From Comamonas endophytica (lineage in GTDB: Bacteria > Pseudomonadota > Gammaproteobacteria > Burkholderiales > Burkholderiaceae_C), in assembly GCF_023634805.2 (NCBI RefSeq), contig NZ_CP106881.1, forward strand, positions 248,001-312,000: 64,000 nucleotides of DNA, in the 5' to 3' direction. The notes under the pieces are model-generated. The model did not search any database. It worked only from the letters and a program-made list of their open reading frames with translations, and was not told where the DNA came from. Shown here one piece after another: positions 29,171-34,696 of this stretch (position 1 is the first letter of the stretch; each line of letters starts with the position of its first letter). The translations under genes and the position numbers were made by a program.

Positions 29171-29208
29171 AACAAGGGCTAGTGCCTTTTCAAGCTCTAG
29201 CCCTTGTT
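29171..29208 (-). promoter_or_regulatory. Long perfect hairpin between rplT and pheS
   Basis: AACAAGGGCTAG (29171-29182) and CTAGCCCTTGTT (29197-29208) form a perfect 12-bp stem with a 14-nt loop. On the minus strand the stem is followed by TATTTTC, a weak U tract. It may be a partial terminator setting the ratio of ribosomal protein to PheST mRNA. I see no Phe-rich leader peptide before it. Confidence 0.5.
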
Positions 29209-30051: not shown

Positions 30052-30648
30052 TCAAGCAGCCGGCGTTGTGGGCGCATCGCCCTGCGGCTTGGCCCCTGCG
30101 GGCTTTTTCTTCGCCGGTGCGATCATCATGATCATCTGGCGGCCTTCGAGCTTGGGGAACTGCTCGACGGAAATGCTGTCGGCCAGGTCATCGCGCAGGC
30201 GGTTGAGCAGGGCCAGGCCCAGGTTCTGGTGCGTGATCTCGCGGCCGCGAAAGCGCAGCGTGATCTTGCACTTGTCGCCGTCAGCCAGAAAGCGGCGGAT
30301 GTTGCGCAGCTTGATGTTGTAGTCGCCGTCGTCGGTACCGGGGCGGAATTTGACTTCCTTGATCTCGATGACCGTCTGCTTGGCCTTGGCCTCGGCAGCG
30401 CGCTTTTGCTCCTGGTACTTGAACTTGCCGTAGTCCATCAGCCGGCAGACCGGCGGATTGGCGGTAGCGGCGATTTCCACCAGGTCAACATCCAACTCGC
30501 CAGCCATGCGCAGTGCTTCCATGATGGGAACAATGCCGAGGGGCTCGTTTTCCGGGCCGGACAGACGCACTTCAGGCGCCATGATTTCACGGTTGAGGCG
30601 GTGCTTGCGCTCCTCACGGTGACGGCGATCGCGAAATTCAGTAGCTAT
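30052..30648 (-). CDS. infC: Translation initiation factor IF-3, probably with an AUA start
   Basis: A 198-residue IF-3: the N-domain has [19 protein letters not shown] and [23 protein letters not shown], and the C-domain [17 protein letters not shown] and [18 protein letters not shown] 20-residue Lys/Pro/Ala tail extends it. The frame has no ATG near its natural start. ATA 30648 gives [19 protein letters not shown] and has AAGGG 8 bp upstream. A GTG at 30657 abuts that AAGG with no spacing, so it is a poor start. Rare start codons let IF-3 repress its own synthesis (AUU in E. coli). It follows thrS by 85 bp. Confidence 0.9.
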
Positions 30649-30733
30649 GGTTTTCACCCTTGAATATGAATGGCTACAACAGCGTAGCCTGCTTGCGTGC
30701 ACTGTGCACGCAAGCCAAAGGCTGACATCTCAG

Positions 30734-32665
30734 TCAGTTCTTGGATGTGATGTCGCTGGCGACCAATTCAATGAATGCATCGACCGACATCACGCCGAGG
30801 TCCTTGTTGCCCCGGGCGCGCACTGCAACCGCTCCAGCCGCCTTTTCCTTGTCGCCAGCAACAAGAATATAGGGCAGCTTCTGCAACGAATGCTCGCGTA
30901 TTTTATACGTAATCTTCTCGTTGCGCAGATCGGTGACCACGCGAAGCTCCTGGCCGGGCAAGGCCTTTCGCAGCTTTTCGGCAATTTCACGACAGTAGTC
31001 GCCCTGGGCGTCGGTGATGTTGAGCACCGCCGCCTGCACCGGTGCCAGCCACGTCGGCAGCGCGCCCGCGTACTGCTCGATCAGGATGCCCAGGAAGCGC
31101 TCCATGCTGCCGACGATCGCGCGGTGCAGCATCACCGGGCGGTGGCGATTGCCGTCCTCGCCCACGTATTCCGCGTCCAGGCGCTCGGGCATGGAGAAGT
31201 CCACCTGGATCGTGCCGCACTGCCAGTGGCGGCCCAGCGCGTCCTTGAGCGTGTATTCGATCTTCGGGCCGTAGAAGGCGCCGTCGCCGACCGCGATCTC
31301 GAACTCGACGCCGGAGGCGCGCAGGCTGTCCATCAGGGCGGCTTCGGCCTTGTCCCAGCTCTCGTCCGAGCCGATGCGCGCCTCGGGGCGCGTCGCGACC
31401 TTGTAGATGATCTCGGTGAAGCCGAAGTCGGCATAGACCTTCTGCAGCAGGCGGCTGAAGGCCAACACTTCGGGCTGGATCTGGTCTTCGGTGCAGAAGA
31501 TGTGGCCGTCGTCCTGCGTGAAGCCGCGCACGCGCATGATGCCATGTAGGCCGCCGGTGGGCTCGTTGCGGTGGCACTGGCCGAACTCGCCGTAGCGCAG
31601 CGGCAGGTCGCGGTAGCTCTTGATGCCCTGGTTGAAGATGATGATGTGGCCCGGGCAGTTCATCGGCTTGAGCGCGTAGTCGCGCTTTTCGCTCTCGGTG
31701 ACGAACATGTTGTCGCGGTACTTGTCCCAGTGGCCGGTCTTCTCCCACAGGCCCTTGTCCAGGATCTGCGGCGCCTTGACCTCCTGGTAGCCGTTGTCGC
31801 GGTAGACGGCGCGCATGTACTGCTCGACCTGCTGCCACAGCGTCCAGCCCTTGGGGTGCCAGAACACCGTGCCCGGCGAATGCTCGTCGATATGGAACAG
31901 GTCGAGCTCGCGGCCGAGCTTGCGGTGGTCGCGCTTCTCGGCTTCCTCCAGCATGCGCAGGTACTGCTGCAGCTCGTCCTTGCTGGCCCAGGCCGTGCCG
32001 TACACGCGCTGCAGCATCTCGTTGCGGTGGTCGCCGCGCCAATAGGCGCCCGCGACCTTCATCAGCTTGAAGAACTTGAGCTTGCCGGTGCTCGGCACGT
32101 GCGGGCCGCGGCACAGGTCTTCGAAGTCGCCTTCGCGGTACAGGCTCACGTCCTCGTTGCTCGGGATGCTGGCGATGATCTCGGCCTTGTAGTGCTCGCC
32201 CAGGCCCTTGAAATAATCCACCGCCTCGTCGCGCGGCAGCACGCGGCGATGCACGGGCTCGTCCTTGGCGGCGAGCTCGGCCATGCGCTTCTCGATGGCC
32301 GCCAGGTCTTCGGGCGTGAACGGGCGCTTGTAGGCGAAGTCGTAGTAGAAGCCGTTCTCGATCACGGGACCGATCGTGACCTGGGCTTCGGGGAACAGCT
32401 GCTTGACGGCATAGGCCAGCAGGTGGGCCGTCGAATGGCGGATCACGTCCAGGCCGTCGGCGTCCTTGGCGGTGATGATGGACAGCTGGGCGTCCTGCTC
32501 GATCAGGTGGCTGGTGTCGACGACCTTGGCCGCGTCGCCGGAGCCGATCTTGCCGGCCAGCGCCGCCTTGGCCAGGCCGGTACCGATCGAGGCCGCGACG
32601 TCGGCGACCGTGACCGGGCCGGGGTACTCGCGCTGGGAGCCATCGGGGAGCGTGATGTGGATCAT
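30734..32665 (-). CDS. thrS: Threonyl-tRNA synthetase
   Basis: A 643-residue class II synthetase. Domains in order: TGS (1-61, [20 protein letters not shown]), editing domain with the HRRV and HSTAH-type motifs (about 62-225), catalytic core with MNCPGHI (zinc Cys), [13 protein letters not shown] (motif 2), [19 protein letters not shown] (motif 3), and an anticodon-binding C-domain ending [19 protein letters not shown] fixes ATG 32665. It leads the infC-rpmI-rplT-pheST-ihfA operon and has an attenuator-like leader. Confidence 0.98.
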
Positions 32666-32720
32666 GGGATTCCTTGTCAAAGCTTGTCTGGGGGAGTGGT
32701 GCGCGCGCCCATGCCGGAAA

Positions 32721-32748
32721 ACAAAAAGCGCGGAACGGGTCCGCGCTT
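32721..32748 (-). terminator. Attenuator terminator in the thrS leader
   Basis: On the minus strand AAGCGCGGA (32748-32740) pairs perfectly with TCCGCGCTT (32734-32726), followed by TTTGTTTT. It stands 56 bp before thrS and after a Thr-rich leader peptide, so it acts inside the thrS transcript rather than at an operon end. Its 5' arm can instead pair with GTTCGCGC (32777-32784), the antiterminator. Confidence 0.75.
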
Positions 32749-32791
32749 GAGAGGGGGAAAAGCAGGTCTCGTGCAGGCGCGAACAACCGGC

Positions 32792-32836
32792 CTAGCGGCC
32801 GGAGGAATTCTCCGTGGAGGTAGTTCGCGGTGTCAT
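32792..32836 (-). CDS. Threonine-rich leader peptide of the thrS operon
   Basis: A 14-codon frame: M-T-P-R-T-T-S-T-E-N-S-S-G-R-stop. Four of its first eight residues are Thr, using all four Thr codons (ACA, ACT, ACC, ACG). AAGG lies about 10 bp upstream of the ATG. The CGCGAAC that spans codons 3-5 (32823-32829) pairs with GTTCGCG, protecting the antiterminator. A ribosome stalled at these Thr codons would free GTTCGCGC to block the downstream terminator. This is inferred from sequence alone, by analogy with thr and pheM leaders. Confidence 0.7.
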   Translation of the reverse strand: MTPRTTSTENSSGR

Positions 32837-32889
32837 AACCAGTTTGCCTTTCTCGCCCTTGTACGTTGGAAACAGTGGTGCAGGCGCGC

Positions 32890-32895
32890 ATTTTA
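32890..32895 (-). promoter_or_regulatory. Candidate -10 element of the thrS operon
   Basis: TAAAAT on the minus strand is the best -10 match in the 126-bp gap upstream of the leader peptide. It puts the start of transcription near 32883, about 47 nt before the leader ATG. A matching -35 at optimal spacing is not clear (TTGCCA is 20 bp away). Confidence 0.4.
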
Positions 32896-32962
32896 CCCCT
32901 GCCGCGCGCATTCCGTGGCAAGCCGCGCTTTCAGCAGCCCGCCCTGCTTGCCCGTTGCAACA

Positions 32963-34696
32963 CTATTCGATGCTGGCGATCGGCGTGCCCTGCTGATGGA
33001 AGGAGCCGGCTTCGGCGCGCAGGGCGATCTTGCCGGCGCGGTGCGCGGTCACCTGCATCTCCATCTTCATGGCTTCCATGACGGCAATGACGTCGCCGGC
33101 GTTGACCAGATCGCCATCGGCCACCTGCCAGGCATGTAGCGTACCGGTCACGGGCGCGCCGACGGCTGCCGCGTCCTTGGGCGCCTCGGCAGGCGCGGCC
33201 GCCTGCGGCGCGGCACCTGCGGACAGGCCGGCCAGCCATTCGGCGGGCAGCCCCAGGCTCACGCGGCGGCCGTCGATCTCCATCACGGTGCGGTGCAGCG
33301 CCGCGCCTGCGATTGGCACTACGCGCACTGCAGCTTCGAGATCGCCGGCGAAGTCGGTTTCAATCCAGCGCGTATGCACCTTGAAGTCCTCGTCTGCTTC
33401 GGCAGTGAAGTCCGGCTGCTCCAGCACCGCGCGGTGGAAGGGCAGCACCGAGGCCACGCCTTCGATCCGGAATTCCTTGAGCGCACGGCGCGCGCGCACG
33501 ATGGCGTCGGCGCGCGTGGCGCCGGTGACGATCAGCTTGCCCATCATCGAGTCGAAGGTGCCCGGAATCACCGATCCGGCAAGGACACCGGTATCGACGC
33601 GCACGCCCGGGCCCGAGGGCGCGTCGAAGCGCGTGATGGCGCCGGGCGTGGGCACGAAGCCGCGGCCCACGTCCTCGGCGTTGATGCGGAACTCCAGCGC
33701 GTGGCAGCGCGGCGCGGGAGTCTCCAGCACGCGCAGCGGCAGGCCGTCGGCGATGCGCAGCTGCTCGACCACCAGGTCGATGCCCGTCGTCTCTTCCGTG
33801 ACGGGATGCTCGACCTGCAGCCGGGTGTTGACTTCCAGGAAGGAGATCGCGCCGTTCTGGCTCAGCAGGAATTCGACGGTACCGGCGCCGGTATAGCCCG
33901 CCGCCGCGCAGATGTCCTTGGCCGACTGGTGGATGCGCGCGCGCTGCTCCTCGCTCAGGAAGGGCGCAGGCGCCTCCTCCACCAGCTTCTGGTTGCGCCG
34001 CTGCAGCGAGCAGTCGCGCGTGCCCAGCACCAGCACGTTGCCATGCTGGTCGGCCAGCACCTGCGCCTCGACATGGCGCGGGCGGTCGAGGAACTGCTCC
34101 AGGAAGCATTCGCCGCGGCCAAAGGCCGTGACGGCCTCGCGCACCGCCGAATGGTAGAGCTCGGTCACTTCCTCGAGCTTCCACGCCACCTTGATGCCGC
34201 GGCCGCCGCCGCCAAATGCCGCCTTGATGGCCACGGGCAGCCCATGCTGCCGGGCGAAATCCACCACTTCCTGCACGTCCTTGACGGGCTCGGCCGTGCC
34301 GGCCACCAGGGGCGCGCCGACCTGAATGGCCAGCTTGCGCGCTTGCACCTTGTCGCCCAGGCGGCTGATGGCTTCGGGCGAGGGACCGATCCAGACCAGC
34401 CCGGCATCGATGACCGCCTGCGCAAAGGCCGCGCTTTCCGACAGGAAGCCATAGCCCGGATGCACGGCATCGGCGCCGCTCTTGCGCGCGATCTCCAGCA
34501 GCTTCGGAATGTTCAGATAGGTGTCGGCTGGGCGCTGGCCGTCCAGGCCATAGGCTTCGTCGGCCATGCGCGCGTGCAATGCGTCGATATCGGCATCGGC
34601 ATAGACCGCCACCGACTTCACGCCGTAGTCGGCACAGGCACGCGCAATGCGCACGGCGATCTCGCCGCGGTTGGCAATCAGGACTTTTTTCATCAT
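32963..34696 (-). CDS. Biotin carboxylase fused to biotin carboxyl carrier domain
   Basis: A 577-residue protein. The biotin carboxylase part (about 1-450) has the ATP-grasp glycine loop FGGGGRGIK (161-169), [14 protein letters not shown] (288-301) and the C-terminal BC domain. After an Ala/Pro linker (about 495-515) comes a biotinyl domain with EAMKMEMQV, biotin on K544. It has no carboxyltransferase domain. It is the last gene of the pyroglutamate operon, 1 bp after the pxpB-pxpC fusion. KipI/KipA domains are homologous to the carboxyltransferase part of urea carboxylase, so the two proteins may form one carboxylase acting on a lactam or urea-like substrate. Confidence 0.93.

Follow-up and report, generated by a model that had tools for sequence, protein, structure and literature searches.

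What governs the expression of thrS, the gene encoding threonyl-tRNA synthetase, in Comamonas endophytica? In the window (the whole 64,000-nucleotide stretch of DNA analysed here), thrS heads a unit that continues downstream with infC, rpmI, rplT, pheS, and pheT, each identified by a score above its NCBIfam cut-off, and the space in front of it holds a short open reading frame (ORF) rich in Thr codons and a hairpin resembling a terminator. Do the two act together? Comparison with other genomes makes it very probable that they do, as a ribosome-mediated transcription attenuator of thrS sensing charged tRNA-Thr. Such a leader would probably raise the output of ThrS when loaded tRNA-Thr is short. 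The pertinent features are as follows:

32890..32895, minus strand: putative promoter -10 element TAAAAT, read from the sequence, with no matching -35 element scored
32847..32853, minus strand: ribosome-binding site AGAAAGG, at the heart of a block, AAGRGCGAGAAAGGCA (32860-32845), that hardly varies among the leaders
32792..32836, minus strand: leader peptide ORF, MTPRTTSTENSSGR, with ATG at 32836 and TAG at 32792, from sequence and comparison
32822..32827, minus strand: Arg-Thr codon pair CGA-ACU, shared by most leaders of the order
32823..32829, minus strand: segment 1, CGCGAAC, predicted partner of segment 2 when no ribosome covers segment 1
32777..32784, minus strand: segment 2, GTTCGCGC, predicted to pair with segment 1 or with segment 3 (antiterminator)
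32739..32746, minus strand: segment 3, GCGCGGAC, which forms the terminator's 5' arm and is the predicted partner of segment 2
32726..32748, minus strand: terminator stem-loop (3:4) of 9 pairs, found by terminator scan
32718..32725, minus strand: T tract of the terminator, read from the sequence
30734..32665, minus strand: thrS, encoding threonyl-tRNA synthetase and heading the unit (NCBIfam TIGR00418, 718.5 bits against a cut-off of 383.65)

The original prediction placed a 14-codon frame with four Thr among its first eight residues at 32792-32836 of the minus strand, and this was exact to the base: the codons are ATG ACA CCG CGA ACT ACC TCC ACG GAG AAT TCC TCC GGC CGC TAG, with Thr at positions 2, 5, 6, and 8. 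It was right as well about the ribosome site before the ORF, which lies within the nearly invariant block, about the 9-bp terminator stem and U run upstream of thrS (whose start is at 32665), and about the locations of the three segments (CGCGAAC at 32829-32823, GTTCGCGC at 32784-32777, and GCGCGGA at 32746-32740). The block itself reads AAGGGCGAGAAAGGCA in the window, between TAAAAT and the leader ORF; its near invariance was seen in alignment A1, which holds 45 of the 53 leaders described below. Within 32500-33100, the stem-loop at 32748-32726 was the sole terminator-like site scored, 0.5 being expected in shuffled sequence, and the leader as a whole folds better than its shuffles (z -2.3; 2 of 200 shuffles as good). 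The gene upstream of the leader (32963-34696) encodes a biotin carboxylase domain, with matches below the curated cut-offs.

An 11-bp direct repeat, CGCGCCTGCAC, had also been proposed to add a further alternative pairing. The repeat is present, at 32888-32878 and 32781-32771, but only in the window: none of the other leaders among the 53 has a repeat of at least 9 bases between its 5' end and the region after its stop codon (a 40-base value for one locus, L022, was discounted as a slicing artefact from its short upstream sequence). The extra pairing was therefore rejected.

In the classical order of events, stalling of the ribosome is set against its arrival at the stop codon. RNA polymerase would start near 32883 on the minus strand, and a ribosome would start at 32836. 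When Thr-tRNA is scarce, the ribosome would stall at Thr codons 5-6 (and 8), covering segment 1; segment 2, freed by the stall, could then pair with the terminator's 5' arm (segment 3), and polymerase would read on into thrS. When Thr-tRNA is plentiful, the ribosome would reach the stop codon, where it would sit seven bases before segment 2 and hinder the 2:3 helix, and the terminator would form. With no ribosome at all, 1:2 would form, and so would the terminator.

If the leader peptide matters, its codons should be conserved. A ThrS query led to 80 loci from titled genome contigs, from genera that include Acidovorax, Comamonas, Rhodoferax, Limnohabitans, Roseateles, Leptothrix, Ralstonia, Bordetella, and Achromobacter; the window ThrS is 84-90% identical to that of many of them. 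Two loci (L067 and L071) had no usable upstream sequence, leaving 78 to be scored. A leader ORF is present in 52 of these, giving with the window a set of 53 leaders, 48 of which, the window included, are of the ATGACACCG type. Within this type, codon 2 is ACA and codon 3 is CCG in 48 of 48, codon 4 is CGA in 45 and CGG in 3, and codon 5 is ACT in 42 and ACG in 6. The changes in codons 2-5 are thus synonymous only, and the Thr codons at 2 and 5, whose conservation in relatives was the check proposed at the outset, are Thr throughout. Codon 6 is Thr in 39 of the 48 (ACG 17, ACA 13, ACC 8, and one other), its third base being free. The core of the ribosome site, AAAGG, is conserved alongside the ORF. 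Substitutions of this sort point to selection on codons; a chance frame would not show them.

Thr continues to be favored beyond the Arg-Thr core, accounting for 119 of 449 residues, whereas four of the window's genes have it at 111 of 2390 codons, and 38 of the 53 leaders carry at least four Thr. Long runs occur in MTPRTTTTTTSTSTEV (Leptothrix, L055) and MTPRTTTTTPTRV (Roseateles, L058). Other peptides include MTPRTTSEMLTGR (Acidovorax), MIQAPRTTTASERQ (Ralstonia), MFFPLARTTTRNFRPMSR (Achromobacter), and, with an uncertain start, MSPNYARTTTSSPR (Bordetella).

A transcription start downstream of 32836 would leave the ORF out of the transcript, but such a start is unlikely, because TAAAAT lies upstream of the ORF, at 32895-32890, and TA[AC]AAT is found upstream in 29 of the 53 leaders; its distance from the leader ATG is 48-50 nt in 21 of the 53 and 59 nt in the window.

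The original prediction held that three pairings compete, and two of them fared well. The five inner pairs of the terminator form in 43-44 of 44 aligned leaders, and 47 of 53 leaders can form at least 6 pairs between segments 2 and 3, compared to a mean of 25.2 and a maximum of 32 in shuffles. Examples of 2:3 pairs are GTTCGCGC/GCGCGGAC, GTCCGCGC/GCGCGGAC, CGCCGCGC/GCGCGGCG, and GTCGCGTT/AACGCGGC, and the antiterminator shows changes on both sides: the arm base after CGCGG in the 47 helices is in A-U 16 times, C-G 14, U-G 2, and U-A 1, and is unpaired 14 times. The third pairing is only weakly conserved, a 1:2 helix of at least 6 pairs occurring in 22 of 53 leaders (shuffles: mean 12.8, maximum 19). 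Calculated energies gave a family-mean z of -1.05 (t -5.5) for 2:3 and -0.75 for 1:2, relative to shuffles, over 55 loci in 22 families (G186 included). Single loci fall below z -1.64 in 20 of 55 cases for 2:3 and in 12 of 55 for 1:2, and in 25 of the 53 leaders the 2:3 energy beats the leader's own shuffles at p<0.05.

RNA folding was also among the checks proposed, and with a ribosome in place its outcome was mixed. In an RNA that ends before the 3' arm of the terminator, the 5' arm pairs upstream with a mean probability of 0.87 when the ribosome sits at the Thr after Arg, 0.64 when it sits at the stop codon, and 0.62 when the RNA is naked (0.73 with shuffled spacers). This probability exceeds 0.5 in 50 of 53 leaders when the ribosome is stalled; the contrast between ribosome positions is modest, since the same is true of 45 leaders with the ribosome at the stop codon and of 38 without a ribosome. 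In the complete leader at equilibrium, the terminator wins even with a stalled (masked) ribosome in 48 of the 53 loci. This counts against a purely thermodynamic switch, and a kinetic step must be assumed, because equilibrium folding with the full terminator gives no antitermination in those 48. Attenuator switching of this kind is generally taken to be kinetic.

How widespread is the leader? The sampled order, which we take to be a broadly defined Burkholderiales that covers most former Betaproteobacteria, in agreement with the named loci, was searched with a covariance model, R1, built from the 44 leaders of alignment A2; the nine rows left out of the 53 were L009, L010, L022, L068, L075-L077, L079, and L082. 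Some match at E<=0.01 was found in 238 of 399 genomes of the order, and among the weak matches listed, many are confined to the 3' part, where the terminator is. For 28 genomes with a match at E<=1e-6, the place of thrS is known; in 27 of them the match is 16-212 nt upstream of that gene, the exception being G086. Three of 184 genomes of the class gave matches at E<=1e-6: two belong to the window's own family, and the third (G506) is weak, with no thrS in the 3200 bases around it. R1 would miss leaders of other types, because it was built on the window's type.

A panel independent of the model was made by locating thrS in 194 of 200 genomes of the order and taking the best 149 of the 194 upstream regions, from 44 families. 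This panel leans toward genomes nearer the window and lacks families f2, f8, f15, f40, f41, and f44. Of these best 149, 109 have a terminator no more than 260 nt from thrS; five shuffles gave 2, 5, 4, 5, and 4. Among the 109, an ATG-initiated ORF with at least three Thr in codons 2-10 is present in 41 (mean of 20 shuffles, 0.85) and a leader ORF with CGA-AC[T/G] in frame in 50 (shuffle mean, 0.45). One or the other type is found in 57 of the 109, representing 23 of the 44 families (20 shuffles: mean 1.3, maximum 3), and 52 of the 109 fail both. A leader restricted to the window's family is thereby rejected. Outside the order (a list of 56 genomes, from which the best 20 of 55 located thrS upstream regions were taken), some terminator-like site was seen in 9 of the 20, and the ORF test was passed by one, which has no terminator.

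A looser scan of the order panel, admitting any CGN-ACN Arg-Thr pair, gave 55 ORFs. One, in G186, crosses a tRNA and was taken as false, leaving 54 leaders, with peptides such as MFRTRTTTQR, MSFRTTTTGTLNQG, MFKRTTTTRISR, and MTPRTWKFTEIRR. Their Arg-Thr hexamer is CGAACT in 48, CGAACG in 5, and CGCACA in 1. The residue after the pair is Thr in 20, Cys in 11, Ser in 8, Arg in 8, and another in 7. The number of Thr per leader runs from 1 to 8, with two Thr in 13 of the 54 and one in 4.

The codons concerned are rare ones. Among 111 Thr codons in four of the window's genes, ACA and ACT are the least used, with 3 each; CGA accounts for 1 of 163 Arg codons, and AGA and AGG are absent. The leader nonetheless holds ACA, ACT, and CGA fixed, and across the order most leaders keep CGA-ACU unchanged. 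Such invariance of ACA-CCG-CGA-ACU exceeds what sensing of Thr alone would need. The 1:2 helix was rejected as the reason for an invariant CGAAC, because it is not conserved across families. In E. coli, Thr codons in the leader peptide thrL control termination ahead of thrABC. PMC1183508 mentions eight ACC codons, sets out a theory by which attenuator codons should be those read most sensitively to supply, and states that ACC, a common codon, is the one employed by E. coli thr. The two systems differ in that E. coli thrL serves biosynthesis genes with a common codon, whereas the leader in the window stands before a synthetase gene and has a core of rare ACA and ACU (ACT).

Perhaps, then, the codon pair itself does the work. 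On this account, the leader would be translated and would control termination, the decisive event being a pause at the rare CGA-ACU or one caused by the nascent M-T-P-R-T chain, with additional Thr merely tuning the response. The pair is indeed CGAACT or CGAACG in nearly all of the 54 leaders though any CGN-ACN was allowed, its codons are scarce in the window's genes, and leaders such as MTPRTWKFTEIRR and MTPRTCFFLR have few further Thr. However, CGG replaces CGA in three of the 48 ATGACACCG-type leaders, and some genomes of the order have MTPLTT or MRPPTT in place of the Arg-Thr core, so that the Arg is not essential. Moreover, a further Thr stands no more than four residues from the pair in 42 of the 54 leaders of the panel. 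A pause as the decisive event is accordingly improbable, and sensing of charged tRNA-Thr by way of the Thr codons is preferred.

A different sort of control would dispense with the peptide. In E. coli, thrS is repressed at the level of translation by ThrS itself, acting at an operator, and in Gram-positive bacteria, thrS is subject to a T-box that senses tRNA directly. Both systems act on the gene that the leader in the window would control. PMC2965389 likewise states that ThrS regulates its own expression. By analogy, ThrS might bind the leader RNA at a tRNA-like operator and repress, the ORF being incidental. The invariant block does reach upstream of the ORF, and a small hairpin at the start codon is possible, its three core pairs having mean probabilities of 0.38-0.47. 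That hairpin (GGU-UAUGAC-ACC) was considered separately as the reason for the invariant block and judged weak, its three core pairs averaging more than 0.5 in 28 of 65. An operator would not account for coding-type substitutions or for enrichment in Thr, and the start of the peptide varies by family (MTPRT, MFRT, MSFRT) while Arg-Thr stays constant. The leader strand also has no match to an Rfam family at gathering level; at E<=1, there is one unrelated match, on the opposite strand (E 0.39). An operator bound by ThrS is thus very unlikely. A T-box riboswitch was rejected in the same searches, as the leader gave no T-box match at gathering level or at E<=1.

A tRNA often lies upstream of thrS. 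In the best 149 of 194 genomes of the order, tRNA-Val(GAC) is found on the strand of thrS, at most 500 nt upstream, in 104, spread over 40 of 44 families (survey loci L113-L261), and in 0 of 5 genomes of the window's family. Genomes with this tRNA hold 43 of the 55 Arg-Thr ORFs, the distance from the end of the tRNA to the start of the leader being 17-60 nt in 39 of 44 cases. Among the named relatives, three Ralstonia loci (L075-L077) have the arrangement, and Bordetella (L079) and Achromobacter (L082) do not. Since tRNA-Val(GAC) also precedes thrS in 12 of the best 20 genomes outside the order (L264-L283), the tRNA-thrS unit looks older than the leader. It joins, as an old unit, a tRNA and a synthetase of different amino acids.

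Might the hairpin, then, do nothing but end transcription of a gene or tRNA upstream, and the ORF be a chance frame? Families f14, f35, and f37 are just what one would expect in that case: tRNA-Val is followed directly by the hairpin and then by thrS, with no leader ORF seen. In the window, however, about 140 nt separate the -10 element from the hairpin, which comes 215 nt past the stop codon of the upstream gene, and neither the shuffle controls nor the coding-type conservation fits a chance frame. A plain upstream terminator, already disfavored, is left with a very small probability.

Where transcription of the leader starts can be judged in part from Cupriavidus metallidurans (PMC9045368, section 6 and Table 2). 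There, the mapped start assigned to thrS has an RpoD promoter and is tagged as the RNA gene Rmet_R0015, which we infer to be tRNA-Val. A start upstream of the leader is supported by that mapping. In the same species, infC, rpmI, and ihfA have mapped starts of their own. The original prediction would have tied IF-3, L35, L20, and PheST to charging of Thr-tRNA; because infC, rpmI, and ihfA start separately in C. metallidurans, full coupling is doubtful, and coupling may at most be partial.

One might go further and suppose that the switch centers on the fixed rare pair CGA-ACU, that CGA, itself poorly decoded, when in the P site makes the next Thr codon unusually sensitive to charging, so that one or two Thr codons suffice, and that this sensor was inserted early in the Betaproteobacteria into the older tRNA-Val(GAC)-thrS unit. 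The terminator behind the tRNA would thereby have become a regulated gate, and the output of thrS would reflect both the activity of the tRNA promoter and the charging of Thr-tRNA. The proposal is speculative and, taken whole, unlikely.

The ORF is absent in 26 of the 78 related loci, and 18 of these 26 have a terminator-like hairpin before thrS, the other eight having none. Of 16 leaderless loci inspected, 15 have a TAAAAT-like element whose end is 12-30 nt ahead of the hairpin. This layout, with the element and then the hairpin directly before thrS, is seen in L012, L014, L016, L018, L026, L043, L045, L046, L048, and similar loci. In one Polaromonas assembly (L028, about 2830-2870), the leader block can still be read and the terminator is kept, but the start codon and one Thr codon are lost, apparently a leader in decay. 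Some Rhodoferax-type loci (L013, L056, L066, and L073) carry an element like GATAGCTACAAAATTAATAGTAAA between leader and terminator; at a guess, it may be a dispersed repeat.

These loci form a natural series: tRNA-terminator-thrS; tRNA-leader-terminator-thrS; own promoter-leader-terminator; and leader decayed or absent. The series could be useful in learning how attenuators arise and how they are lost, and the leader itself offers a concrete, testable regulator of thrS for a large group of bacteria.

Leader-peptide attenuation is a known kind of control, and a Thr leader on thrS has been reported in Streptomyces; what is unusual here is the invariant CGA-ACU, which raises the question of whether the context of the P-site codon tunes the sensing of amino acids. 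For Streptomyces lividans TK24, PMC8079986 reports, from RNA-seq and sequence, leader peptides on alaS, trpS, leuS, and thrS. The logic of thrL-thrS is the same as that proposed here, a Thr-dependent leader peptide upstream of thrS, but the phylum differs, and so does the peptide, MKRVRPFLETTPGFVPAR, which has its two Thr in mid-peptide, unlike the Arg-Thr core near the N terminus of leaders of the window's type. The thrL transcript is described there as leaderless and with no clear U-rich terminator, in contrast to the strong, conserved terminator found here. Did control by a Thr leader arise twice? Another comparison is uORFC-8-2 of Rhodobacterales, a computationally predicted attenuator of cysS (PMC8632094), in which a short ORF carrying cognate codons likewise precedes the cognate synthetase gene, together with alternative stems and an intrinsic terminator. 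It differs in its amino acid (Cys, not Thr), in belonging to the Alphaproteobacteria, and in having its tandem codons late (14-15). The original prediction knew of no Thr-peptide attenuator described on a betaproteobacterial thrS, and none was found in the literature searched, though a survey of attenuation in aminoacyl-tRNA operons (Lopatovskaya et al., 2010, Mol Biol 44:128) may contain one.

The downstream part of the unit has features of its own. Within the same gene neighborhood in E. coli, thrS-infC-rpmI-rplT-pheST, pheST is governed by an attenuator with the leader peptide pheM. There the leader stands on pheST, whereas in the window it stands on thrS, and inspection by eye revealed no Phe-rich ORF before the window's pheS. 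Just before pheS is a stem of 12 pairs, AACAAGGGCTAG / CTAGCCCTTGTT (29171-29208, minus strand), followed by TATTTT. Between thrS and infC is a near-perfect palindrome of 25 bases, GCTTGCGTGCACAGTGCACGCAAGC (30691-30715, minus strand), which could form a strong hairpin and has no T tract. The start codon of infC is apparently nonstandard, AUA at 30646-30648 (minus strand), and of 80 relatives, 42 yielded the motif, with AUC as the start in 38 and AUA in 4.
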